From Hirudo medicinalis (Eukaryota > Annelida > Clitellata > Hirudinida > Hirudinidae): DNA of 64,000 bases. The first letter of the stretch is position 1. Every line of letters begins with the position of its first letter. Under the pieces are notes generated by a model. That model did no database searches, was not told the origin of the DNA, and saw nothing but the letters and a program-made list of their open reading frames with translations. Both the position numbers and the translations under genes were made by a program. The stretch spans positions 255,270 to 319,269 of the forward strand of contig MPNW01000006.1 in the NCBI GenBank assembly GCA_011800805.1, given 5' to 3'. This document shows positions 2,191 through 64,000 of the stretch, one piece after another.

Positions 2191-5100
2191 ATGGAAGAAG
2201 AAAAAACTGTTGTGCGAATTAGGGTGAAGGTGAATTAAAATTTGTAATTACATATAACTTTCTTTAATGTATGAACTGCGGAAATTGGGATTTGTTATTC
2301 TTGACATTTAGTAATCTAGAATGTAGTGATTTTTATGATAATGAAAGTGAAATCGTATGATTAATCAATTTTATGGAATATTTCATCAAAATGTACAACG
2401 TTGTATCAACAAATATAAATAAATATGTCAATATTGCAAGCATTTGTACAGTGTTGGTGATTGATAACCTTCCTACAACCTAGAAATGTAATGAGACATC
2501 AAAACCTGAATACAAGAAGATGTCTGTTGATCCCAGCTTGACTTCATTTGATGTTCTTCGAAATCTCCTTATTCGAGCCTTTGACATAAAGAGGTAATGT
2601 CAGATTCTGAACCATGATTTATGAATATTTTAAGGTTTTTTATATTTTTTTTAACTTTCGCTTAACTTTACTTGCAGCAATTTCTCAATAAGTTATCTGT
2701 CAATGGATGATAGGGGGGTAGATACCTACTTGTCCATGCTGTCAGATTGGGATTTAGAGGCAGCTATCTCTACTTCTTGCAAGCCATACTTATGCTTGAA
2801 AGTAGAATTGAGGAATGCAGATAAAGGTATCTTCAATTTTGTAATGGTCCATAACATATGTCATATTTATTTCTCATTTTTACATTTCTTAGGTCTAGAA
2901 GAATGGGATGCTATACACAAATCTGATTCACTCAATAAGGCCATCACAAAAACAATACCAGGAGGGACAGTCTTTAATAATTTCTTCAAATCAATTTCCA
3001 AAGTTCTTGGTAATTTTCTTAGTTCCAAATTGAATGATTTGTGAATAATTAATTTGTTGTGAATTTAATTTGTAATATTAAAGACTTTTTATTTAGTTAA
3101 TGTTGAACAAATAATTTTAATCACATAACAACAATGCAGCTAAGTTGATGTAATAAATAAATTTCATGAAAGGGAATGTCCTTTAAGAGACTTTCAGTAA
3201 ATATTTACAGCTTTTACAACATATTTGATAAATTTGATTTCTAATCAGATCTAATTTGATTACGGTTATGTTATAATGTTTTTGAAGGAATAAAAAGTGA
3301 GGATGTCTCCTCTCCAGCTCATAATCCTATCTCTCCAATGTCAGATGTTCAGTTCAGAATGTTTCAGAACAAGGTCGGGTGTCTCATACACAGAGATCAG
3401 TTCAAGTTGGCCGTATTTCAGTCAGGGGTCGAGGAGTCCCTGAGGAAAGTCGTGTGGAGGCATTTATTGGACGTATACCCCGAACATCTCAACGGGCAGG
3501 AGAGAATGGAGCACCTGAAGGTATGGCTTTGATTTTATGGGAAGCCCTTTTTCCATGAATAACAAACATAAGCAAAAAAAAAACACAAATAATTGATCCA
3601 TAAAAGAAATGATGTCCAAAGGCTAAGTCCAAAGGTATTCAAACCAGCGTTTTAGATTTTGGGCAGTTTTTTCGAAACTCGGGTTTCGGGTTAAAACCCG
3701 GAACTCGGGTTTTCCCTATCCATTATAAACTTATTTACTAATAACAGCTAAAGAAGCCAAAGGCAATTTTATATACCATATATAGACATATATAATAAGG
3801 TTAATAGAATTTATTTTCTGTAAAACTTTTGTAGCACCATCATTGCACATTGCAGTGTCATCATTAAGTTCTTAGTTTGTCATTACAGAAAAAGCTCTTT
3901 CTGCTTCCATTGAAGTTGGTCAAATTGTTGTCAAACATCTGTAAAGTTTGTCCAAGTTTTCAGGTCTTTTCTTAGTTGCTTGAAACAACTGAATTTCTTT
4001 TTTGATGATATGGGAGACAAATCCACATTCAAGTTGACTTTGTTGTGGGTCTTGCTCCTGCAGAAATATATTTAGCTCATCATACAGGGAGATTTCCATT
4101 TTAGAAACTTCTTTGTTCTCTTCAGCGACATCCTTGACTTCAATTTCAAAGCCATCATCATCATCTTGGTCAACTTCATTAGCTTTAAACAAACGTTCCA
4201 TTAAGTTTGTTGCAAGGATGGTAATCTTGGTCTTCTGAATTTTGATACCAAACTCATCGTGAGTCTCATCAAGGAAGTCTGCCAATTTCAAAAATTTAAT
4301 CAGATGGGCCAGCTCTGGATTGCTCAGCTTTAGCACTCGAATTTCAAATTTTTGAAACACAGTCTTCCCGATAGGAGTGTTTAAGTCTCTCAACTTCTTC
4401 AATGTGAATGCTGTTACGTTTTCAGCTAGGACGAGGTCAGCATATTCTTGACACAAATATTGCACTGCAATTTCAAGAGGAGCAAGTGCATCACAAAGTT
4501 CTTTAATCGTGGCCAGTTCTTGGTCATTCAGATCAAACTGCTGATCAATCTGAAGCATTGCAATTTTCACTTCTTTTTTCACCTCATAAAAACGTTGCAG
4601 CATTTTCAAAAGACTATTCCATCGTGTTTTACAGTCCAGTAAAAGATTCTTTTCTTTACCAAAAGTTTCTATGTTTTGAGGTTGCAGATTTACATCATTA
4701 TGGACAGGAGATTTTCGAAATAGCTTAACAATTTTCCTGACTTTTGCAATAATCTCCTTAAGCTCAGGAACAAAATTTGATAACTTGTCTTCAGTCGATT
4801 CTTCTTGATAATCAGAATCATCATTTTCCTCTTCTTGAAAATCAAACTCTTCAATTTCCTCATCTTCCATGTTGTCCTCTTCTGATCTACTTTCCTGACT
4901 TTTGTATAGGACATCACAGACATCCAAATGAATGGCATGTGCTAGACAAGCAACATGGAGAGGGTTAGCGACCAAACTTCATCATGATGCTTACACCATC
5001 AGTGACTGAGGCTACAACGTCATCATCCAAAGAAACTTTGTACTCACTGAGCCTCTCTTTGAAAAGCTGAATCAATCTTTCTGTGTTCATGCTCCCCACA

Positions 5101-8100
5101 ACTCTAATTAGACCTAGAGATTGGAAGTCAGTTGAAAAATGTAAATTCAGATTTATGAATCATTGGTTTCTTGTTGATGTTGATTTATCAAAATTAATTG
5201 AAAAACGACTATTGCACTCTTGATTTCAACAATTTGCTCTTGAAAATGTTTCATGAACAGAACTTTAATTTGGCTTGGGCAGGAGGATGCAATCTGATTT
5301 AAAAGCACGTTTGATAAGAGAACTATTAGCATTTTTATTGAAAGATAGGCCATCTAAAGCAACTAGACCAAAGCAACTTGGCCACAACTTCATCAACTGC
5401 TCTTTGATAAAATAGTCACCAGTTACGTGAGTTTTCAATTTGGTCCCCTCAAAAGATGAGGCATCAGGGAGAGTTCTGACTTCAATATGAATTTGTAAAA
5501 CCCGGGTTTCGGCACCCATAAAATCTATGAAAAAACCTGGGTTTTTGGGTTCGGGGAAACCCTAATTCAAACCCTATTAGGAAGGCTGCCAATATGTTTT
5601 TAATCATTACTTCTTTTTTTACTCTGACTCACTCAATGAATGAACTCAATTGCTGGCAATATTTGTCATAGTGCCTGCACATCCCATTGGGATAATTTGT
5701 GCACTCAAAATATGGGCTAAATAAATGTAATGTAAATACAAAAGAATTCTAAATGAAAAGCAAATCTTTTGTTTTTTTGATGAGCAAATAAGCAAGCAAA
5801 ACAAGAAGAGAATGGGTGCAAGATGGAAGGAAGAAATGACCAGATATTCAAATGTTTACGAGGCAGCAAATACAATTTGTAGAGTGATTTAAATATTGAC
5901 ATCAAGGTAGATGTGACCATTTCTTAGCAAAATTACTCAACAATATTCATTAAATTATTTTATCTCTACTGTTGGATTATTTGTCCCATTTAGAGAAAAT
6001 CGAATGAGTATTATGAGCTGAGGGAAACTTGGAAGTCAAGGATGGCGAATAAAAGCATGACCCCCGATGAGAAGCAGGTCATGAATACTGTCAGAAAAGA
6101 CGTATTGAGGACCGACAGGCACCACAGGTCTGTTTGGATTAGATTTATAGTTATTATGACATTTAATAAAACAAGTTAAATAATGTTATAAATATAATAA
6201 TGTGCTAAAGACTGTCTGAATTATTACTGTAATATCCTTTGCATGTTATTACTGTTTGGGTTATGTTCAATGTTCCTTCTAAAGGCTAGTGCAGATAATT
6301 TTAATGATGAAGTCCAGAAAGCATGGCTTGTGATGACATTGAAGTTGCACGTAGATGCCATCAAAAGGGAATAAGACAAACAACTGTGTCCAGAAGCACA
6401 TATTTTCTGCAAATTTTTTTGCCACATTTTCCAATAAGAGACAAAAATTAGATGTTGTTGGTGAGGAAGAGGTCGATAGATAATTGACTGACATAACTTC
6501 AGAGTTATCATCTCTTAATTGATATCTCCACCTAAAAAAATTATATGCAGTCCTAAACACTGGATTACCCAATTGCTGGATTTGAACTGAGTTTTTAAAG
6601 ATTGGTATTGCCAAAACATATAAAGCAAAATATTGGTATTGGTATTGCCAATACTTTTGTAGAGTATTGTTAACAACTCTGGCCATCACATCCACATATA
6701 CTCCTATACATACCAAGATACAAAATTCCTTTGCCAGATCCAAAATCACTACTTCACTTCATCACATGCTTAGTCCCAAAAATATATTCTAAGATTCCAA
6801 TCACCCAGCAACCAAACTTATCTACCTTCAAATGTATGTTTAAAATATTCATTATTGACTCGCCATTGCTTCAGTGACGTATTAATTCAGTCCTTTATTT
6901 NNNNNNNNNNNNNNNNNNNGATTCCAATCACCCAGCAACCAAACTTATCTACCTTCAAATGTATGTTTAAAATATTCATTATTGACTCGCCATTGCTTCA
7001 GTGACGTATTAATTCAGTCCTTTATTTTACTCTCTGTCTGTAATAATTTACCATAGACTTATAACTAATTTTTAAATATAGTATGGGCAGTCCAGATAGC
7101 GGGATGCCATTCTTTAGGACAAAATTCCTTGAACCAATATAATTTTATTTTCTGCTCATGTTGTACATATATTTTGTTCATTTGTTTGGCTCATTGAAAA
7201 AAATAATGTATATAAATTGGGCTATTCTTACTCGTCATCATTAATTTCATTATCATTGGTGTGCTAATATTAATAGGATAGCAGAGCATTATATTAATAC
7301 ACAGATAGTTGAAAGAATTATATATTTATGTTCATAAAGGTTACTGATTGCATTGCATTTTTTTCTCAGTTTTTTTGAAGGAGCAGATGACAACCATAGC
7401 AGTCTGATGCTGCTCAACATTCTAGTCACCTATGCCTTCACTCATCCTGAGGTGTCCTATTGCCAAGGCATGAGCGACCTTGCTTCTCCCCTCCTGGTCA
7501 TTCAGAAGGATGAAGCATCAGCCTACATCTGCTTTTGCTCACTCATGCTTCGACTGAGGAGCAACTTTCTTCCTGATGGAATCATGATGACCTCCAAGTT
7601 CAGGCATCTATCTCTCCTACTTGAGTACCATGACCCAGAATTTGCTGACCGACTCAAGAACCACAGGTTGGAGGCAGATCTCTTTTTCTGCTATCGATGG
7701 ATTCTTTTGGAGATGAAGCGAGAGTTTCCATTGGATGAGGCAGCTTATGTCCTGGAGGTCATGTGGAGCACGCTGCCCACCAAGCTTCCAGGAAGAGATG
7801 GAATTTTACTCATGGATCCACAATTTGTTTCCTCTGCTTATTTGTCCAGTCATCCTAAGCCATCACTGAGTTACATCATCCTAAAGAAGAAGTTTTCTGT
7901 TGCTGGTGATGGAATAGAGTGCAGTCGGAACATTGCCCAGAACACTCCTACAGGTAACATCTTGGAGAGCCCGTCAGATGAGACACCTACTGCTATGGAA
8001 TTGGTTGATGTCAACATGGAAGAGTACCTGGAATTAAAAAGAAAATCACAGGAGATTGAGCGCTCACTTGAATCTTCTCTCCATGACCTCATTCCATCGA

Positions 8101-8969
8101 CTTCAGAACACCAAGGTGAGTATATATGTTTAATTCAATGCTTTATAATATTGATCATATTTATCATAGTCTCATAGTTTTTAATTATATTAAACATTTT
8201 AATATTTATAGTTTATTTTTTTATAATTAAATTTATTATTTATTTACATTTTTAATAATTTAATTAAAATATTTATTAATTTATAATTTACGCTTTATTG
8301 GTTGAATTTACCATAGTCTCATAGTGTTTAATTATTTTAAACATTTTAATATTTTATATAAATAATATCCCTCTAATTGGCATTTGCAAAAACTAATGTT
8401 ATTTTCTTAATCAAGTATTTGATGAAGCAAGACAAAATGATCAGAAGTCAGCGCCAGATAAAGTGAAAATCGATCCTCTCAAACATTCCACTCTATCTGA
8501 CTTCTTGAAATCAAGTTTGAATGATGAAAAGCACTTGGAGAAGTTTCAGTGTCAAAATAAATCCTGTCCAGCTCAACTTTCCAATGCTGATGTGAAATCT
8601 TTAAAAAGCAAAATGAAATTAGATTTGGCTATAACAAAAGAAAATAATGCCAGAGATTTTAAATCTGAAGTGGATGAAACTGATGAAGAATCATGTCTAC
8701 TGGATGACAAACAGAAATTGCCCTCCTCCCTTCCCCCTCCCCAAGAATTTGGCTGTGGCAATCCATTCTTGATGTTTCTCTGTTTGTCTCTCCTTCTTCA
8801 ATACAGAGATCGAATCATGACTCACAAGATGGATTACAATGACACAGCCATGTTCTTTGACAGGATGGTCAGGAGACACAATGCAAGGAGTGTTGTTGCT
8901 CAGGCAAGAGTTCTGTACTGTGCTTACGTGAAGTGTCAAAAGGAACTCTTGGAGTCTAAAACTTCATGA
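2191..8969 (+). CDS. TBC1D25: TBC1 domain family member 25 (Rab GTPase-activating protein, OATL1)
   Basis: Eight exons join in phase: 2191-2229, 2484-2593, 2678-2826, 2893-3009, 3288-3520, 5994-6127, 7370-8115, 8416-8969. They give a 693-residue protein, close to the roughly 690 of vertebrate TBC1D25. Residues 1-98 are the N-terminal ubiquitin/PB1-like region (VVRIRVK, YLSMLSDWDLEAAI). Residues about 101-106 (EEWDAI) form an acidic W-x-x-I motif like the LC3-interacting region of OATL1. The TBC domain has the arginine finger in KDVLRTDR (about 250) and the glutamine finger in YCQGM (about 292). The C-terminus carries LPPPQEFGCGNPFLMFLC, diagnostic for this family. Known role: a Rab33B GAP on autophagosomes. 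A possible polyadenylation signal AATAAA lies at 9358. All phases and the stop agree, so the gene appears intact despite the transposon in intron 5. Confidence 0.96.
3655..5575 (-). mobile_element. Decayed hAT-superfamily DNA transposon in TBC1D25 intron 5
   Basis: The element lies antisense to the host gene. Both ends are rich in GGGTTT/AAACCC strings (3680-3715 and 5495-5575), which probably mark the terminal regions; I could not fix exact terminal inverted repeats or a target duplication. Between them the minus strand carries transposase segments in more than one frame. Confidence 0.8.
3845..5519 (-). pseudogene. hAT transposase pseudogene
   Basis: The longest open part, 4975-3920 (351 codons), contains NPLHVACLAHAIHLDVCDVL and LDCKTRWNSLLKML, which are typical core motifs of hAT transposases. 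Upstream on the same strand, SLDDDVVASVTDGVSIMMK (about 5040-4980) and the segment from 5519 to 5265 read as earlier transposase sequence, but in broken frames. At the 3' end the conserved dimerisation motif TSMEAERAFSVM follows an in-frame TGA, and a TAA comes soon after it, before ELNDDTAMC. With two stops inside the dimerisation domain and frame breaks upstream, the gene cannot make a full transposase. An acidic insertion (EEDNMEDEEIEEFDF) is present. No BED zinc finger was found. No sign of use by the host gene. Confidence 0.85.
6128..7369. other. TBC1D25 intron 6 with assembly gap (N run 6901-6919)
   Basis: A run of 19 N is flanked on both sides by the same 108 bp (6793-6900 and 6920-7027), identical as far as I can read. 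This is a typical unmerged overlap between two contigs, so the gap is probably not real and the duplicate should be collapsed. The intron also holds a short TATTGGTATTGCCAATAC-type repeat at about 6600-6660. Confidence 0.85.
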
Positions 8970-17052: not shown

Positions 17053-20000
17053 CCGTTGCCGTTGCCGTTACCGTTACCGTTACCGTTACCGTTACCGTTA
17101 TCGTTGTCGTTATCGTTATCGTTATCGTTATCGTTATCGTTATCGTTATCATTATCATTATCGTTATCATTATCATTATTATTATTATTATTAAAGTGAT
17201 AAGTTGAGCATTTGCATAAATCTTATTTAACAATAAGTCCTGAGACCAGACCAGATGTGATTTGGTTAATAATAACCACATCTGAATGATGATTTCAAAC
17301 AAAAACAATATATTATATATTTGCAAATCTCCAGGTTCTCTCTGCCACAAATTATCCAAATCTTGTGGAGGTCCTAAAAGAGTGCATGACTCTTTTAGAC
17401 TCCATTTTGAAGGGTCTCAACATCTACCTTGAGGACAAGAGACTCTATTTTCCTAGGTAATGCCGTTTTTAAATGACAACATTGATTAAGAATATTACAA
17501 AATTTTAGTAATGTTAAGATGTTAATTAATCCATTATTTAAAGGATAGTAAAAATTAAAATATTTATTTCAAACAGTAATATAATATTACTTTAATATTA
17601 AGATTCTTCTTTTTGTCAAATGATGAGATGCTGGAGATCTTATCTGAGACAAAGGATCCGACAAGGGTTGAGAGCCATCTCAAAAAATGCTTTGAGGGCA
17701 TCAACAGACTTCAGTTTGATGAGGAACTCAACATTTCTGCCATGTTTTCCACTGAAATGGAAAAGGTTTTGATTTGGACCATCAGACATGTACTCTATTA
17801 AATGTTTTCTGTGTTTCCACATTAATAATAATAATAATAGTTCCTTTATACGGTGCCTTAAGCATAGCGTCAGAGGCACCTTGGTTCTCCGTTTAATGCT
17901 ATCTTGAATAGAATGGTCTTCAACCGATGCTTGAAGAGTTTAAGTGTAGGTTGAGACAGAATGATGGGGTCATTCCAGATGGCAAGCAAGGCATAGATGA
18001 AGTTATAGTTTTATTTTGATCATAAATAAATAAATTATATCTGCTTGGTCGATTAGTTGAGTCCAAACTTGTTATTTTGCAAGATGGTAATGACATTAGT
18101 TTTATTTTTTGATATGGTGGTTTATTTTATTTTCCTTTTGATACGAAACTCAACATGCATTATTACACATATGAATAGGTTGATTTGTTTGAGATGGTTT
18201 CCACTAAAGAGGCCAATGGGGCTGTGGAAAGGTGGCTTCTCAGGGTTCAAGAAGTCATGTTTCTTTCCATAAAGAAATAATTTCAAGGTCTAATAAGGTG
18301 AATTGTCATTCAGAAACAAAAATTGAAATGTAATTTAATTTAAAATTCCACCAAATTTGGACTGTGAATGTTTCAGGCATACTTATGCACTGAGAGGGTT
18401 GATTGGGTTAGGGGCTGGCCAGGCCAAGTAGTCCTGTGTGTCTCCCAGATGCAGTGGACCTCCAATGTGCATGAGGCAATCCGCTGTTCTTCCATAAAAA
18501 GTTTTTGGCATCAGCTTAATGAACAGCTGTCTCGGATAGTGGAGCTGGTTTGTATATTTGAATCTTAGCAGCATTGATTAATTAATTTATTATGTAATTA
18601 GAAAGTGCATAAAGTATGTGATTTAGGTGTTGCATTCAAATCTTCCATGATATATTAAGTAAGTATAGTTTTACATTTTGTATATCTGTTTTGACTAATT
18701 CTGATTTGTTAAATGAATTCAGACATTTAACCAGCTGCAAGGTAGCCAATCAAATTGTTTCTGAATGAATGAACTAATAATCGAATTTTCTCATTCTTAA
18801 GGTTCGTGGTAACTTAACTCAACATGAGCGAATAACAATGGGGGCACTAGTGGTTCTTGATGTACATGCCAGAGATGTCATAAATGATATGGTTTCTAAA
18901 AATGTCACTGATGAAAAAGATTTTGCTTGGTTGGCTCAATTAAGGTACTATTGGGAAAATGCAGAGGATGTAGACATTGTTGATAATGATAAAGATGATG
19001 TCTACATGTCTGTCATCAATGCAAGAGCAAAATATGGCTATGAATATCTTGGTAACACTGAGAGGTAATTTTTCGAATAACCAGTCATTTTAATTTTGTG
19101 TATATGATGTGTATATTTATACATTTGTACATTTATTATTTTTGGCAATATTTCAATGGTTATCTTTTGTTATGCTTAGTTTATTTAAGTCAAATAGGAT
19201 TTGATTATCAAGTCTTAGTTCCACTACACAACCAATGAAAATAAGCTGGTATCATTTCAGTCTAAGTTTCATGATTTTTTCTACAGACTGGTCATCACTC
19301 CATTGACTGATAGGTGCTATAGGACACTGATGGGGGCCTTCCATCTTAACCTCAATGGAGCCCCTGAAGGTCCAGCAGGCACTGGCAAGACAGAAACTAC
19401 CAAAGATCTTGCCAAGGCCATTGCAGTTCATTGTGTTGTGTTCAACTGCTCAGATGGCCTTGACTATATATCTATGGGAAAGGTCAGGGAAAGTGCAGTA
19501 CTGAAACCAAATTTTGGTTTTTGAAAGAAACTATCCAACATTTGAAATATTAAGAGTGATATGTAGAATTTACACTCTTTCTAGACATCTTCAAATTTCA
19601 ATTTCAAAGATGATGTACAAAAAGATGTTGCACAAAATTTAAATAAATTAAAAGAAAGAAAATAAAATAATTAACAATCTGTAATAAGCAACAGAATTTT
19701 TAATATGTACCTCCTTTAAAATTTACTCTGCAGTTCTTCAAGGGACTGGCCTCTTCTGGGGCTTGGTCATGTTTTGATGAGTTTAATAGGATTGAATTGG
19801 AGGTTCTATCTGTGGTCGCCCAACAGGTTATTGTAATAAATATATAATAAATAAATAACACTGATAGTAATAAGCAAGCATATTATTAATATGCTATTAA
19901 TAATGGCTATTCTAACGATTTTGTAGATCTTGTGCATCATGAATGCAATTCAAGCTCGAGAGCAGACGTTTACTTTTGAGGGCACGGATTTGTCTCTTAA

Positions 20001-53370: not shown

Positions 53371-53566
53371 GCAATAGGGGCTTTAACGCTTATTCAGAAT
53401 AACATGCATGCCCTTGATCGTATTTTGTGCGTTGTTATTTGAAAATAATTTTTGACAATTTATATTATATCCCTAATAATTTGGAAATGCTACATAGTGT
53501 CTGATGCCTCGTTTTGAGTTTATATGAAAAAGATACATTTAATTAGGTTCAAGCCCTTTGCCCTCC

Positions 53567-56500
53567 ATGTTTACCAAATTGATCTTAATGACATGCTTTT
53601 TTGGATGGCCCGAGGCTCTTCGTAATAACATTGAGTTTGTTCATGACGAGCCTGCTACAAACAAAGTTACAGATTACGATGTTACTCTCGAGTATTACAC
53701 CTTAGAGGAGGAGAAAATAAGATACGATCTCGCAAGGAATCAGAAACTTCATGCCCTCATTTCTTCGTTGGTTTTTACACCTTATAAATTCCTTTTTCGC
53801 AAACAAACAAAGATCTTCAAGCTAACTTCCGCAGGAATTCTGTCATCTGTTGGATCCTTGGACAGAGAAAGGTTGTGTGCTTCAGAAGCTTTGTGCCAGA
53901 TCTGTATCGACGTTGGATTGCAAGTGAAAGATATGCCTCTAAAAAATATAACGATTTTAATTATGATAGAAGATATTAACGACCATCCACCAACCTTTGA
54001 AAATCACAGGATGGTGCTCAATGTATCAGAAAACGAAGAACTCGGTTACATAGTGGCTTTGCCATCAGCTAGCGACTCAGATGGGCCAAAATATGGAATA
54101 GACAAATACCAGTTGGAAGAAATAGGAGAAAGATATTTCTTTGATCTCCTGCTTGATTCTGATGAAAATTTGATACTCGATTCATCAACACACCATCTAG
54201 GCTACAGGAACCCAAGGCTGAAGTTAGTTAACAAGTTGGACCGTGAAAATAAAGATCTACACAGACTTAGATTGATTGCATATGATAAAGGAATTCCAAA
54301 TAAGTCCGGAATGTTATTGATTGGTGAGTATATTTTTGTTAACTGTAGGTAATGTTAACCTTTATTTTATTAAATATTAATAGAAATTCAAGTAGAAGAT
54401 GCAAATGATAATTACCCTCAGTTCGAAAGTTCATATTATATTGCTAATTCTATAGAAGAACATTCTAATCCCGTCTCGTCTCTGATACAAGTACGAGCTC
54501 ATGACTTAGACATGGGATATAATGGGGAAGTTTGGTACGATTTCACGAAAGAAACGAAACATGCGTTTGGGCATTTGTTTAGCATTGATTCGATCACAGG
54601 GATTATTTCAAACACTAAAAGCCTGGATTGTGAACTTTTAGGACGAGAAGTCATTTTGGAAGTGATCGCCTACGATATGGCTGATAACTTTTCGTCTCTG
54701 CCCGCTAAAGTGATCGTGAACATAGAGGACATAAATGATCACATGCCTGAGATAATTCATGATATTGCTTGGTATGATTCTGATAAATTCGAATGCTTAT
54801 CTGGCGTTAATGACATGAAAAAGAAAGTTTATCCAATTTTTATCAAAGAAGTTGCAAATACATTTAGAAATCAGACCATACACATTTCATTTTCAGTTAC
54901 TGATAAAGATAATAATTATGATAATGTTGTGTCGTGCCAAATTGTACAGAGCAACATCAAGTCTGGATTTCGATTGGAAAACGTTAATGAAAACGTGTAC
55001 CAACTTTGCTTTCCATGTTATAGTGAAAGTGTTCAAGATTTCGAATCTATGAACATGAATTTGTTCGATCGCGAAATGCAGGACTGTCATTTTGTAGTCA
55101 TTTCCTGCTCCGATACTGACGATAAGATTTCGTTCACATCTGATGTAACGTTTGTCATTTCCCTAGAAGACATTAACGATAACAAGCCAAAATTAGAATT
55201 CCAACAATACCATTTTACCACCACAAGTCGAGCTTTATGCGACGGCGAAGCAATTGGACAATTCAAGAGCATCGATCCAGACGAAAACGACAATGGCAAG
55301 CTTCGTGTTTTCGTTGAAAATTGTGCATGGGTTAATTTTAAAAACTACTCTGAGAATGCTGCAACACTGACCCCTAAGTTAAACGTCAACGATGGAATTT
55401 TACGATTTGTTAAATTTGGAGAAAGGATATCTTGTGAAGAATCTTATTACGGCTTGCATGAATGCATAATTAAAGTTGAAGATTTCGGTCTGCCAAAGCT
55501 TAGTTCTTCATCAAGTGTTTTTATTTTTATCGATCCATCACAGATAACCCCTTTAGATATAACATCTCAGAAATGCTATTCCATGTTTATACGTGAAAAT
55601 CAACCCAGACACACTTTTATCGGAAACATCAGATCCTACTTGAATGTTAATGCCTCTCTGCTAAAAGTATTAAGCTCAGATAATACTGATATCTATTTCG
55701 ACCCTGTGACTGGCAGCATATCTACTCGTATTTCTCTTGATTATGAGTTAAAAAATTGTTATAAATTAAGCATTTTGATGATGGTGAAAAACAATTCTAG
55801 AGAACAACATGATTCTGAGATCAACGTGGACATTCATGTACTTGATGAAAATGACAATTCACCCATTATATTGTATCCTCGTGATAATGACATCATAAAG
55901 GTGTTTCAGATATCCCATGTAGTAAGTTTAGATGTTTGCAACATTGTAGCAGTAGACCACGATGATGGGGAGAACGGAGAAATAGATTTTCAAATTATGC
56001 AGAATGAAAGCTCAAGAGAATTAGAGTTAGTTCTAGGAGTACATTTTAAATTATTACACTTTTGATGATACCTATTGATGACTGATAATAAACATTGATA
56101 TAATGCGCAGGAATTTCTTTCGATTGAATGCTACCACCGGGAAATTGGTTTTCAACTTAATTGAAAGAGCATTTCAGCCCAATTCTAAAGAATTGTCTTA
56201 CCATATCACTGTGATTGCTTGTGATAAAGGCAAGATAAAAAAACAAACGAGGTTTGATTGACTTTTATTGCAATAATGATAATAATAATAAAGATAACAA
56301 TAAGAATCAAATTTGGATATTTTATTTATCATGTCATGGACAATATTTTATATTGTTTCTGTATTTAAATTGCGGCATAGAATTACTGAGGTAAATTTTT
56401 AATTTTACAAGCGGTTCAATTCATTTGTTATTGCCATCAATATTCCTTGAAATCGAGAAATAAAGCTCATGTGTGGATTGACAATTATTTGTTTCACATC

Positions 56501-59037: not shown

Positions 59038-59563
59038 TAAATCATAAGAAAACCTTGTAAAAAGTTTTTATAAAAAATGCATAACCATAATCAAATACAT
59101 GCACTACGTAGGGGAGCGTTGTTCGTGAACAAATTAAGAAAATGAGAAATGTGTTGTACCGATAACCGAAATCAGAAATAAATTCACGAATTTTTTTTAA
59201 GAGTCTGTTTATTGGTATAAAAAATATAAAAAAAAGCATTTCATGTTCATTTTTGTGAGTCCAATTTCGAACCAGGATGTAATAAGTCAATAAATGAATT
59301 AAATAATTATTACATTTTAATTTAGCATTACTTAATTGTTAAAATCACAGTAGTTCATGATTATTATAATGACATTACTAAAATAACTTCGTTAGACTCT
59401 CATTTACATGTGTTGAAACATCCACTCTAACTCAACAATGATAAATGACCAGTCAACCAATCCATCCATCCAATCATATCATTGTTATCATCAATGTACC
59501 TACTATTAATGACAATCTACCATGTCAAATCCATTGAACCATAAACTATTATGTTGAAACTCA

Positions 59564-59621
59564 CCTGGAATGGCTTTGTTTTGTAAACTTCAAAGGCCAG
59601 CTTCCCGTAATCCAAAATGTA
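59564..59621 (-). CDS. Possible internal exon of an unknown minus-strand gene
   Basis: A minus-strand open stretch reads YILDYGKLAFEVYKTKPF. It is bounded by a pyrimidine-rich acceptor (TTTCTTTTAAG) and a perfect donor CAG|GTGAGT. The peptide looks like real protein, but I do not recognise it. No partner exon is confidently found. Confidence 0.45.
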
Positions 59622-60339
59622 CTTAAAAGAAACAAGATGTGGAGTTTTTAGAATCATAATTTCAAGGAATTAATTTAAAACATTTGTGAGATCATTAAGG
59701 AATGCAATAATTTAAGATCTGCGTTCTAAACGTTCAATTATTGTTTACTGTTAACTTTGGTGCGATAATCCTGGCATAAGCATAAACTAGATGGATATTA
59801 CCCATCCAATGCATCGATCCAATAATCTATATTTTGTTATTTCTGAGCAATTATAAATAATGAATAAAATAATCTACATAAAAAATAAAGTATGTGTCAG
59901 TTCAAGGTCCTTCAATATGCAAAAAATGTAAAATAATCAAAATATGCAAAACCAGAAACAAAATATGTCCTTAGCAACATTAAAAACTTCTCGAATTCAC
60001 AATTCCAGCACCAACGTTATCATCGAGAACTAATAATCACCAAATAACATTAATCAATCTCTAGGTAATTATTATTTCATAAAACAATTATTATAATTGC
60101 TGGGTCTTTCGAACTTGCAAGTTTAAATTTAAAACCTTGGTATGACAATATAAATCTATCCCTTCGTTGAAAGAGCTTTTGATCTGAACAGAACTGAGAA
60201 GTGTGCTCAATACACAATACACATCCTCTTGGGATTTGTTCTGCGCATAACAATAACTAAATAACAATAACTTCTAACTTCATCACCTTAACGCTCTCGC
60301 AATAATTACGCATCTTCTAAATAAATAAGTCAAGACTTT

Positions 60340-60545
60340 CTTTTAACTGCTCTAGGCCCTCGATTTATTAAAAAATCTTCTAAGGAGCTACATTTTAAAA
60401 GAAAGAATTGAACGAGCGAGCGTGCTTATAAAGACAGCGGTGGGGTGGACAAAATGGCGAGCCAGCATGGAAAATTAAGGTTAATGTCGACATCTGGCGA
60501 TCTGGCAATTGTGGTATTCAAGCGAATAAACAATTTTTAAAATTA
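60340..60545. repeat. Block B repeat, copy 1
   Basis: Matches 61210-61420 for about 200 bp (CCCTCGATTTATTA, AAGGAGCTACATTTTAAA, GAGCGAGCG, GACATCTGG, ATCTGGCAAT). Shorter relatives occur at 61059-61100, 61733-61770 and 63505-63545. It lies left of the first telomeric tract. Confidence 0.85.
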
Positions 60546-60667
60546 GCTTATAACCTGATAATCGAGGAACAAATGAAACTTGAATTTTAGCGGATGCATG
60601 AAAAAGCAAATCAATCGCATAAAACCAGTTTAGTACACTCGATAAACAGCACAAAAAAATTAATAAC

Positions 60668-60862
60668 TTTCAAATAAATTAAATTGTCCATTCTTTGAAT
60701 TGCCGGCAACGCGATCTTGATAGTAGTCGTCTTCAGCGGAGAGCGAGTAGTGATGATAGTCGTCATCAGCTGACACCTCTGTTCTGGCCCCGGGCGTGTG
60801 CGCCTTCGTTTGTTCCGTGTCCGTCTCCTTGTCCGTGTCCAGGCTGCTGCTCTCTTATTTAT
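60668..60862 (-). other. GC-rich minus-strand segment with possible coding frame
   Basis: This island is much more GC-rich than its neighbourhood. One minus frame reads SADDDYHHYSLSAEDDYYQD and ends FNLFESY at a TAA; a second frame is Arg-rich. Either the last exon of a gene cut by the repeat array or a repeat component. It lies directly next to the TTAGGG tract at 60895. Confidence 0.3.
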
Positions 60863-60894
60863 CTTCGAATTACGCAATTATTAGCGATGGTACC

Positions 60895-60918
60895 GGGTTA
60901 GGGTTAGGGTTAGGGTTA
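60895..60918 (+). repeat. Interstitial telomeric repeat (four GGGTTA units)
   Basis: Four perfect tandem units follow GATGGTACC. Further short or degenerate tracts lie at 61104-61120, 61146-61157, 61602-61610, 62095-62104, 62206-62246 and 63372-63381. Confidence 0.95.
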
Positions 60919-61209
60919 AAAAATTGCAACAAGCGCCTTAACGCTCTTACACTTTCGCTGCTAACTCCAAGGACAACTGCCCACTGCCCCAAAATCATCG
61001 AGCGTGCAGATAAAATTCAGATATAACTCACTTGATTTTTGAATGTTTTTTTATCCGGCTCTAGGCCCTCGATTTCAAATAAAATCTTCGATGGAGCGAA
61101 CATGGGTTAAGGTTAGGCTTAGAAATAGATAAAATCCTTATACGAGGGTTAGGGTTAGAAAATTATGCAGTAAAATAAATTACTCTTACTATTAATTACG
61201 AAAATTCTA

Positions 61210-61420
61210 TATTAATAAGTCAAGTCTTCCATCTAACTGCTCTGGCCTTCGATTTATTACAAATCTTCAAGGAGCTACATTTTAAATGGAAGAAATGAGC
61301 GAGCGAGCACGCTTTATAAAGAACGGCGGGGTAGACAACGAGCCAACAGGGAACATTAAGATTGATGCGACATCTGGTAATCTGGCAATGTGACAGGAAA
61401 CAATGTTTAAAATCAGTTAT
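61210..61420. repeat. Block B repeat, copy 2
   Basis: Second long copy of block B, with many substitutions and small indels relative to 60340-60545. It begins about 50 bp to the right of the two-unit telomeric tract at 61146. Confidence 0.85.
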
Positions 61421-61437
61421 CGGGTGACACTTAAATA

Positions 61438-61585
61438 AATCCGGATGATTTCAAATCACATAATTAAATTCGAATGATTTCAAATCAAATAATTCCGGAT
61501 GATTTCAAATCACATAATATCTCAATTAAATTCCAATGATTTCAAATCAAATAATTCCGGATGATTTCAAATAACATAATACCTT
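61438..61585. repeat. Minisatellite
   Basis: Imperfect tandem units built on (C/G)GATGATTTCAAATCA(C/A)ATAAT, repeated about five times with alternating variants. No coding potential. Confidence 0.9.
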
Positions 61586-61601
61586 AATAATTTAAAGTCA
61601 A

Positions 61602-61718
61602 GGGTTAGGTAAGAAGTTCCAAAACGGAAAAGCCTTATCCTCTTTCAATCCTAGCAAATAGAGTCCTTGAGAAGTCGAGAGTTTTGAAGAAATTTAAACG
61701 AAAGGATTGAGTTTTGGG
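61602..61718. repeat. Block A (element end), copy 1
   Basis: Starts at a TTAGGG tract and runs through CCAAAACGGAAAAGCCTTAT, CTAGCAAATAGAGTCCTTGA and GAAGTCGAGAGTT to GTTTTGGG. It is nearly identical to 62095-62211. On the minus strand this block is the 3' end of the putative element. Confidence 0.9.
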
Positions 61719-62094
61719 ATTTGCCTAGCGCCTCGGTTTATTATGAACCTTCAAAGGGCGAAATGATCTGAGTGATGATGAAATTATCGTGAATCTTGCA
61801 CTACGAGCTAAGCTTTTCATAAAAAAGATTATGAGATTGGACTCATTTACAATTACAGATTAATTTAACAAATTTAAATTTTTATAGGTTTGGTAATAAA
61901 TTTGTAAATTTCTATAATGGCTCTTCCCCTTTCTATGTAGAGTTATTTTGTAAGCTCTTCTTTCTTCTTCTTTTTATGTTTGAAACGAGAAAAAATCTGT
62001 GCATTATCATCTATCCTTTTGTGTTATTAATTCCTGGAATCCTCATCTTCTATCTCTTAGAAACCATTTGTTTCGTCTTGATGGTACCGGCAAG

Positions 62095-62211
62095 TTAGGG
62101 TTAGTAGTCCAAAACGGAAAAGCCTTATCCTCTTTCAATCCTAGCAAATAGAGTCCTTGAGAAGTCGAGAGTTATGAAGAAATTTAAACAAAAGGAGTCA
62201 GTTTTGGGTTA
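62095..62211. repeat. Block A (element end), copy 2
   Basis: Nearly identical to 61602-61718. It abuts the stop codon of the 375-codon minus-strand ORF and so forms its 3' UTR. The telomeric units lie at its far end. Confidence 0.9.
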
Positions 62212-63325
62212 GGGTTAGTTGTAGGGTTAGGATTAGCAATGTAGGGTTAATCGATGTTATGGGATTAGAGCTGCTTGGGGTGGGGACAATTGTTGGACTC
62301 GAGTTGGTGTTCTGAGGGACTATGGAAGCGAGGCCCTGATTGGAAGTCAGACTCTCAGGAATATCCTCTGTTTGTTGTATGGTTTCTGGGTTCAGAAGGA
62401 TTAGGTGACCTGTGAGTTTGTTTTCCAAGAACAAGTTCTTGCAATCTCGGATGATCTCCTCGATGTTCTGTTTGCTCCACCTTTTATGTGCCCTCTTCCT
62501 CACAAATTCTCTCGTAGATTTTTCCACGTACGGCCATGTTTCGCTTGACAGATTTTGTTTGGCATCAAATAGTTTTCTTATCAGCAAATCATGTAAGGAT
62601 TCCAGTTCATTTAGAGTTGTTTGTGATGTGAACATGGATAAGTTGTCCTTAGCCGTAAGTATTATATTGCTATAGGAATCTCTACTTAGAGGTACTTTCA
62701 ATTGCCGTAGGAATTGATCAAGCTGGTTTTCAAGATGTTTAGGTGTCCCATTCTTCCAGGTTTCCAGATGGGCATTATTTTGGATTAGTTTGAAAATATG
62801 TAGGGAATATGCCATGCACTTTTCCCAAACATGTTTTTCGATTCTAGGTAGACTCTGTTGTCTCAGCCTCACTTGGTTATTCTGGATTTGTGGGTTTTGT
62901 TGGAGTTTGTTCTTGTCCCATTCATGAAGTTGTGTTCTGTAGTTATTGGTTGTGTTGCTTCTTTGTGGTTCTTGTTTTTTTCTTCTGTTATCGGTTTTTC
63001 TTAGGTTGTTCGAATCTTTGTTGTTGTGGTCGTTTTTGCCCTTGTTTTGATGAGTTGGTTTTTTATGGTTTTTGTTGTTATTTGTTTGGGGATTAACAGT
63101 TATCTTTACAAAATTCCTTGAATGATTCTTTTGGGGGTTCTTCACGAAATTTGTGTTTGATTTGGTAACGCTCTTTGGTGCATCTTTTGGTTTTTGTGTC
63201 TTAGGTCTTTGATTCGGGACACTAATCTTGAGATTTTGTGTCATGAAGTCTTTCAATTCCATGACCGCTTTTTCTAAGTCCCTTATTTCCTGATGCACAT
63301 TCATGTCTCTGTGAATAGAATCCAA
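62198..63325 (-). CDS. ORF1-like protein of a putative telomere-associated retroelement
   Basis: A 375-codon open frame, the longest uninterrupted one outside known genes. Residues 1-40 look coiled-coil (QEIRDLEKAVMELKDFM). Residues about 40-150 are very basic and Asn/Gln/Lys-rich, as in nucleic-acid-binding ORF1 proteins. Residues about 165-320 look folded (WEKCMAYSLHIFKLIQNN, TLNELESLHDLLIRKLFD, FVRKRAHKRWSKQNIEEII). The last residues (NPTLLILTLQLTLTQN) are encoded by degenerate telomeric repeat read as CCCTAA. I recognise no family, so retroelement ORF1 is inferred from architecture and context: telomeric repeats at both ends and element-like 5' and 3' blocks. A host gene is less likely, because neither intron nor polyadenylation signal is seen. 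Confidence 0.6.
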   Translation of the reverse strand: MDSIHRDMNVHQEIRDLEKAVMELKDFMTQNLKISVPNQRPKTQKPKDAPKSVTKSNTNFVKNPQKNHSRNFVKITVNPQTNNNKNHKKPTHQNKGKNDHNNKDSNNLRKTDNRRKKQEPQRSNTTNNYRTQLHEWDKNKLQQNPQIQNNQVRLRQQSLPRIEKHVWEKCMAYSLHIFKLIQNNAHLETWKNGTPKHLENQLDQFLRQLKVPLSRDSYSNIILTAKDNLSMFTSQTTLNELESLHDLLIRKLFDAKQNLSSETWPYVEKSTREFVRKRAHKRWSKQNIEEIIRDCKNLFLENKLTGHLILLNPETIQQTEDIPESLTSNQGLASIVPQNTNSSPTIVPTPSSSNPITSINPTLLILTLQLTLTQN

Positions 63326-63371
63326 ACTTAAAGGAAGTGAAGAGTTTTACTCGTTAGAACGATGGCACCAG

Positions 63372-63412
63372 TTAGGGTTAGAAGTCCAAAGGGAAAAGCC
63401 TTATCCTCTTTC
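63372..63412. repeat. Block A (element end), copy 3 (short)
   Basis: After GATGGCACC and TTAGGGTTAG come AGTCCAAAGGGAAAAGCC and TTATCCTCTTTC, as in copies 1 and 2, and then the sequence diverges. It marks the junction between the ORF1-bearing unit to its left and the next unit to its right. Confidence 0.85.
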
Positions 63413-63650
63413 GTTCTTTCGAGAACAAAATCAACAAATTCTTACAAGCAGGAAACTATTTGGTTATTTTGGGGAATGTTTTTAGAGAATGAGTATTTTT
63501 GAGCGCGTCGATTTTATTATAAATCTTCTAGTAGCTTTTTCTAATTTTGGGTGATCAATTCATATGAAGTGAGCGTTCGACTTCAAATAAAAAGATTGTC
63601 AATATTAGAAAATTTAATTAAAAATTAATTGAATTAAATAGTTAATAAAT

Positions 63651-63952
63651 TTACAAAAAAGTAATCTTTGGAGGTTTTTGGTTATTGGTGAAGGCTTTGA
63701 CTGTTTTGTAATTCTTGAAAAGGTCTTCTTCTCCAATGATCCTCTGGAATCCATTTCCTAACTGCATCCCCAGGTTGCTGTAAGGAATGATTATCGGTAA
63801 GATGTCTTGTTTGTAGGTCTCTTCCGGTGGTTGGTATTTTAAGATTTCACTGAGAGTTTTCCATGATTTTCTTACTGAGAAGCCATTTTGGATTTGTATT
63901 TTAATGTAATCTCTGGATGTTTCCATGAAGTCTTTGTCATCAGAAGAAACTC
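63651..63952 (-). CDS. 3'-terminal coding segment of the next element unit (partial)
   Basis: A minus-strand frame runs from a possible acceptor or upstream coding sequence at about 63952 to a TAA at 63651. It reads VSSDDKDFMETSRDYIK, SWKTLSEILKYQPPEETYK, DILPIIIPYSNLGMQLG and ends QKPPKITFL. The segment with IPY followed by a short basic end faintly recalls the stretch after the reverse transcriptase in Penelope-like elements that lack a GIY-YIG endonuclease. That is a weak resemblance by eye. It continues beyond, or near, the right edge of the window. Confidence 0.35.
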
Positions 63953-64000
63953 TCCTAAAACGAATAATCTGTTATCTCTATCACTCTTTCGTGCTACGAC

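Follow-up and report, generated by a model that had tools for sequence, protein, structure and literature searches.

At the end of a leech scaffold, some eight units alternate with short TTAGGG tracts in an array. It is very probably the inner portion of a telomeric array that an endonuclease-deficient Penelope-like element (PLE) has built, with its apparently non-coding families most likely mobilized in trans. This reading is based on the anatomy, polarity and scaffold-end location of the array, the identity of its reverse transcriptase (RT), the lack of an endonuclease, a covarying RNA hairpin and the phase of the junctions. New are the occurrence of such an array, with TTAGGG tracts, in a leech, its endonuclease-less RT group, an ORF1 for which no homologue was found, the fact that no hammerhead was found, and a 3' module that is shared with non-coding families.

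Organization of the array

The window, i.e., the whole stretch of 64 kb analyzed, spans positions 255270–319269 of scaffold C6 (319269 bases). Since the scaffold ends at base 319269, window base 64000 is the scaffold end. The array occupies positions 60235–64000; its start, near 60235, is further left than the 60885 given in the initial annotation. The window also contains genes for cadherin and TBC proteins. Exact 9-mer searches with TTAGGGTTA/GGGTTAGGG detected 13 tract starts on the plus strand of the 64 kb and none on the minus strand (overlapping counts). Of the 13, 12 fall within 60895–63372; the remaining one is at 18405. With all of them on the plus strand, the G-strand runs towards the scaffold end, as in a real telomere, and the coding strand points inward. 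The earlier claim that TTAGGG tracts lie between repeated blocks holds: five are clean (60895–60918, 61146–61157, 62095–62104, 62206–62217 and 63372–63381), and degenerate ones are found near 61104, 61602 and 62220. Three matches to TTAGGGTTAGGG were obtained with up to one mismatch, against 0.15 expected, and the three matches to CCTTATCCTCTTTC (0.08 expected) are all inside the array. The RNA sense is the minus strand, so that the RNA 3' end of each unit is at the tract on its left. The parts of the array are as follows (family names F1–F6 were assigned by eye):

60235..60894, minus: unit 1, non-coding, family F6; hairpin model match at 60349–60388; UAAGG-type motif (ACCTTA on plus) near 60286; 5'-terminal GGUACCAUC (RNA) at 60886–60894; longest ORF 88 aa; left limit set by eye, with no recognizable TTAGGG on that side
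60895..60918, plus: telomeric tract GGGTTAGGGTTAGGGTTAGGGTTA
60919..61103, minus: unit 2, family F4, 5'-truncated; hairpin at 61058–61097; relatives on C11, C411 and C37
61104..61157, plus: degenerate tract (61104–61122), ~23 nt of other sequence, and tract GGGTTAGGGTTA (61146–61157)
61158..61601, minus: unit 4, family F2, block B; hairpin at 61239–61275; tandem 62-nt repeats at 61408–61585
61602..61610, plus: degenerate telomeric tract GGGTTAGGT
61611..62088, minus: unit 5, the first copy of block A (family F3), ~478 nt long and complete at both ends; hairpin at 61723–61759; 5'-terminal motif GATGGTACC at 62080–62088
62095..62104, plus: telomeric tract TTAGGGTTAG
62105..62205, minus: unit 6, the second copy of block A, of which ~100 nt are left by truncation; 96% identical to unit 5
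62206..62242, plus: tract GGGTTAGGGTTAG, then two degenerate ones
62243..63369, minus: unit 7, the PLE's 5' portion, which extends from the 5' end GATGGCACC (63361–63369) through ORF1
62198..63325, minus: ORF1 of 375 aa, rich in N, K and Q and listed with a TTG start
63372..63381, plus: telomeric tract TTAGGGTTAG
63382..63650, minus: unit 8, 3' UTR of the PLE; UAAGGC near 63398; hairpin at 63498–63535 (E-value 2e-6, for a row that belonged to the training set of the covariance model)
63651..63971, minus: 106 aa from the C-terminus of a PLE reverse transcriptase; the copy continues towards the scaffold end

Three copies of a block A had been reported earlier. Two of these (61618–61718 and 62108–62208) are indeed 96% identical, but the third, from 63382 on, shares only ~31 nt at 97%. 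Block A is thus not one block: what had been taken for it is a short non-coding element, present in two copies, and the PLE's own 3' UTR. No ORF longer than 88 aa was found in units 1, 2, 4, 5 and 6, with the longest reaching 88 aa in unit 1, 35 aa in unit 2, 76 aa in unit 4 and 84 aa in unit 5. The minus-strand ORFs described between the tracts were confirmed for the 375-aa frame (62198–63325), and a further one of 106 aa (63651–63971), not mentioned before, was added. Relatives of unit 1 were detected on C940, C300, C101 and C4. GATGG(T/C)ACC, directly adjoining TTAGGG, forms the outer end of units 1, 5 and 7 and also of one unit of C497; as RNA, this is a 5' end, GGURCCAUC, common to all of them.

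Reverse transcriptase and ORF1

The RT ORF of the window (63651–63971) shares 94% identity over 95 aa with P0001, a protein of 356 aa with an RVT_1 domain (E-value, 4.5e-9), which identifies it as the C-terminal portion of a reverse transcriptase of the PLE type. It stops at 63651 and is followed by a 3' UTR of ~270 bp that abuts TTAGGG; no GIY-YIG endonuclease was found after it. Proteins P0001–P0008 all end at the thumb, before the position of GIY-YIG, and this domain was not found in P0002, P0005 and P0008, while P0011 and P0028 carry it. Among the 120 listed RT homologues (166 in all), GIY-YIG is present in 35, as in canonical PLEs; two canonical fish proteins, P0031 and P0043, which carry it, are 36–38% identical to P0001. 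The model of the full-length relative P0002 (pLDDT 91) gave telomerase TERT as its best fold-search match. P0001–P0008 constitute an RT group without endonuclease; the general kind of element is already known. Coprina is named among the endonuclease-deficient PLEs. The endonuclease-deficient telomeric PLE proposed in the initial annotation is therefore supported by the match to P0001, by the lack of GIY-YIG and by the 3' UTR abutting TTAGGG.

A replication enzyme, on which that proposal was to be judged, is represented by the RT C-terminus of the window and an RT remnant on C1220, but no complete copy has been assembled. Searches with two separate RT pieces, which divergent RTs could escape, matched only these two copies and revealed no intact RT in the assembly. 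In the window, the copy breaks off close to the end of the scaffold. That of C1220 contains stops and frame breaks and, contrary to the general rule, has the orientation of the G-strand. In a search of the genome with the PF00078 profile, 150 of 1069 candidates were scored. One candidate on C497, near a suitable end, was rejected, as it reads as a different RT ORF; from its residues, we take it to be of the LTR-element type.

ORF1 contains no Pfam domain and has no protein homologue at an E-value of ≤0.001. As its stop codon belongs to a telomeric tract, the protein has probably lost its C-terminal end; the RNA-3' side of unit 7 joins telomeric sequence within this ORF. Relatives of ORF1 are present on C1220 and C497. 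The one on C1220 is located upstream of the PLE RT remnant, whereas in the window ORF1 and RT are found in separate units. Structure prediction for ORF1 alone yielded a useless model (pLDDT 37). The suggestion that the family is possibly new is borne out for this protein and for the shared 3' module, but not for the kind of element.

The shared 3' module and its location in the genome

Read as RNA from the tract inward, the module consists of the in-phase telomeric complement, UAAGGC ~15–60 nt in, and then a hairpin, GCUC-N-GAAG-(5-bp stem and loop)-CGAGGGCCUA-(G)AGC. In 39 of 54 junctions, the G-strand repeat breaks off after TTA or TTAG, and 30 of 36 hairpin hits lie 76–182 nt from a tract. 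Alignment A1 of the hairpin included 13 of 20 pattern hits (three near-duplicates and four unlike ones were left out) and three sequences added by eye. Changes on both sides occur in four of the five stem pairs, amounting to 15 such cells against 3.9 in shuffled alignments, with the outer stem left out of the count; two of five covariation measures, both of a cruder kind, were not above the shuffles (both-side-changed pairs, 76/500; further pair types, 309/500). A covariance model trained on 16 sequences, which include at least some of its window matches, gave five matches in the window (60349, 61058, 61239, 61723 and 63498). Each of them belongs to the array and is on the minus strand; the match ranking next in the window had an E-value of 0.63. 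Across 27 other loci, every match with an E-value of <0.01 was in an array locus, and none was obtained in nine internal control loci.

Outside the module, F1–F6 and the PLE are mostly dissimilar, but F6 has 85 nt in common with F2 (87% identity) and 51 nt with F4 (82%). Unit 4 lacks GCCTTA owing to a short deletion that is also present in copies of C37, C411 and C96. Since one F2 subfamily has lost this motif and yet has at least four copies, GCCTTA is not strictly required. Pairing of the GCCU with the AGGC motif was rejected, since F3, judged by eye, breaks it. For a hairpin with UAAGG in its loop, no convincing pair emerged when pair statistics were computed from 47 distinct junction segments. 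No Rfam family scored above its gathering threshold in 14 loci (83,861 bases), and low-scoring snoRNA, miRNA, sRNA and lncRNA matches were taken as chance. No hammerhead or other ribozyme was detected by the Rfam search, which a strongly diverged hammerhead could escape, in positions 59500–64000 of the window (E-values up to 5) or 4100–7000 of locus L052 (E-values up to 3).

The concern that copies of the blocks might be mostly internal and without TTAGGG proved unfounded. At least 22 matches to it (61160–61420) are located on at least 14 scaffolds, all at 449–14177 bp from an end; 21 of the 22 listed matches and, by best match, 14 of 14 scaffolds have the outward orientation. The copy at C36:3178 and the RT remnant of C1220 are the inverted exceptions. 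For block A, the expected position at scaffold ends was found in four of six matches (two on C6, one each on C11 and C25); the others are on an 11-kb contig and 44 kb inside C497.

Patterns drawn from the fetched loci were then applied to the whole genome. The junction TTAGGGTTA-N(8–38)-GCCTTA gave 51 matches, compared with six for the reversed control. After overlaps were merged by hand, 43 distinct junctions were left, and 35 of these, on 15 scaffolds (including C31, for which the length is only bounded, >368 kb), are at most 14.5 kb from an end and all point outward. Two of the other eight are on the 11-kb contig, and six are on C99, C122, C231, C244, C315 and C943, which have no end distance; the latter number is about the control count (6). 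The hairpin pattern yielded 17 matches against four in the control, and four of the 17, equal to the control count, are on C231, C465, C1076 and C1116, again with no end distance. In the fetched loci, a non-random sample picked partly by similarity, 74 tracts are no more than 20 kb away from an end; 67 of them are outward, and 44 have GCCTTA within 75 nt, compared with none of 11 internal TTAGGG tracts. All these positions refer to scaffold ends, which may differ from chromosome ends.

Origin of the array and related systems

The growth of the array could be explained as follows. The element RNA would end in a CUAACC-type sequence behind the structured 3' module, and the telomerase-like RT would take the exposed 3'-OH of the telomere's G-rich overhang as its primer, a reaction for which no endonuclease is needed. 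Starting at the 3' end of the RNA, the RT would copy it in the direction of the chromosome tip, often halting early and thereby causing 5' truncation, and telomerase would seal the new end with TTAGGG, onto which the next element could be added. The apparently non-coding families, which have the 3' module in common, would most likely ride on the PLE RT in trans, as SINEs do on LINEs. The priming reaction, trans-mobilization and sealing by telomerase are what we infer; terminal priming on the chromosomal 3'-OH with subsequent sealing by telomerase is the mechanism described for endonuclease-deficient PLEs in the covered parts of PMC3846280 and PMC6431247. For a canonical PLE in vitro, reverse transcription starts inside the RNA rather than at its 3' end, according to the part of PMC11167929 available; together with the junction of unit 7 inside ORF1, this means that 3'-end priming is not the sole possibility. 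With the shared hairpin, UAAGGC and ORFs of ≤88 aa as the mark of a SINE-like unit, units 1, 2, 4 and 5 are candidates; both ends are seen only for units 1 and 5, and there is no intact autonomous copy. Going further, a telomerase-like RT may serve its own mRNA and several short non-coding RNAs through the recognition hairpin and CUAACC, adding any of them in trans. Two related enzymes would then lengthen the telomeres, telomerase using a single RNA and the PLE RT many, in a parasite chain resembling that of SINEs and LINEs; we regard this as tentative, its likelihood falling a little short of even.

That the non-coding families are 3' fragments of distinct RT-bearing telomeric PLE families, each with its own RT and with the module inherited by common descent, is the main alternative and a real possibility, if a doubtful one. 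Unit lengths vary greatly and many units look 5'-truncated, scaffolds stop or have gaps within arrays, so that 5' parts may be missing, and the similarity of F2 and F6 shows that some families are clearly related by descent; rotifer Terminons are likewise very long and mostly seen 5'-truncated, as far as PMC6431247 was covered. Units 1 and 5, however, combine the 3' module with the PLE-type 5'-terminal GGUACCAUC within 0.5–0.7 kb and have no ORF above 88 aa, and the RT searches, for all that divergent enzymes could be missed, matched only C1220 and the window copy. Recombination and chromosome healing might instead have produced a subtelomeric patchwork of passive elements, with TTAGGG as telomerase scars. 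Telomerase is encoded in the same genome and TTAGGG tracts also occur internally, but this account is improbable given that one side of the junctions is constant (with a single motif, and in phase in 39/54) and the other variable, that GCCTTA is found at 0/11 internal tracts against 44/74 near ends in the non-random loci, and that the RNA hairpin covaries. Telomere-specific non-LTR elements such as SART/TRAS are also inserted in telomeric repeats and need their 3' UTR for movement (PMC4700185, in part), yet the relatives of the RT are PLE RTs, with GIY-YIG in 35 of the 120 listed, and the best fold matches of P0002 are telomerase, which makes an origin from such elements very remote.

Under the PLE-based reading, the closest parallels are the Terminon/Athena PLEs of bdelloid rotifers, the best-described telomeric PLEs in the literature covered. 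As portrayed in the available parts of PMC6431247 and PMC3846280, they likewise have an endonuclease-deficient PLE RT, a 3' end in which the reverse complement of the telomeric repeat lies beside structured RNA, and copies that are 5'-truncated by telomeric repeats in head-to-tail or interspersed telomeric arrays. The leech array differs in its repeat (TTAGGG, whereas the rotifer complement is ACACCC/TCACCC), in having no hammerhead by Rfam and a different, covarying hairpin module, and in its short non-coding families with the same module. The likeness to Athena is one of descriptions, not of sequence, as none of the 59 rows with a full core in the RT tree, drawn from the 166 homologues (120 listed), bears that name. 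The endonuclease-deficient PLEs of fungi, protists and plants also lack GIY-YIG and are associated with telomeres (PMC3846280, in part), but the host here is an animal. Canonical PLEs differ from P0001–P0008 in retaining the GIY-YIG domain. The SART/TRAS elements of the silkworm similarly interrupt telomeric repeats and depend on their 3' UTR, but use a non-LTR RT with a repeat-cutting endonuclease (PMC4700185, in part). Judging by titles and the beginnings of abstracts, no non-coding partners of telomeric PLEs were recognized in the literature searched, with two key primary papers outside this coverage; the authors of a study of chaetognath telomeric transcripts found no retrotransposon, as stated in the part of PMC2678813 covered.

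An animal TTAGGG system with a defined, covarying 3' module offers a handle on RNA recognition by a telomerase-like RT and on priming at chromosome ends. If the non-coding families do move in trans, the relation of SINEs to LINEs would have its counterpart at telomeres, and cooperation or competition of a retroelement RT with telomerase would become testable. PLEs and telomerase RT share a common ancestor, according to the part of PMC3846280 covered.

Subtelomeric arrays and scaffold ends

Within unit 4 of the array, an AT-rich 62-nt repeat is present in three tandem copies (61408-61585 of the window). At C36:3178-3413 (L034/L038), a single copy of block B, a segment of unit 4, faces inwards in an array that is otherwise oriented outward, and the degraded reverse transcriptase remnant of the Penelope-like element on scaffold C1220 is found in reversed orientation; both are inversions within subtelomeres. 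Runs of N start immediately outside the arrays in loci L015, L031, L034, L035 and L041, indicating that several scaffolds gap within arrays. The outer telomere is probably missing from the assembly.

Internal telomeric DNA and host telomerase

At G000:C36:242211-242830, an internal position 56 kb from the end, longer TTAGGG tracts in both orientations form a cluster of interstitial telomeric DNA. The junction motif GCCTTA is absent from this cluster, which is probably of different origin from the arrays.

A telomerase RNA-binding domain (E-value, 1e-27) was identified at G000:C687:35282-35647, inside a 1043-aa open frame, indicating that the host retains a telomerase gene.

Other genes in the window

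3920-4975, minus strand, 351-aa ORF
7353-8177, TBC (RabGAP) gene
53558-56065, cadherin-domain exons

The TBC gene and the cadherin exons point to an animal as the most likely host. The 351-aa ORF had no match in the Pfam search and looks like a candidate transposase remnant, possibly hAT-like.
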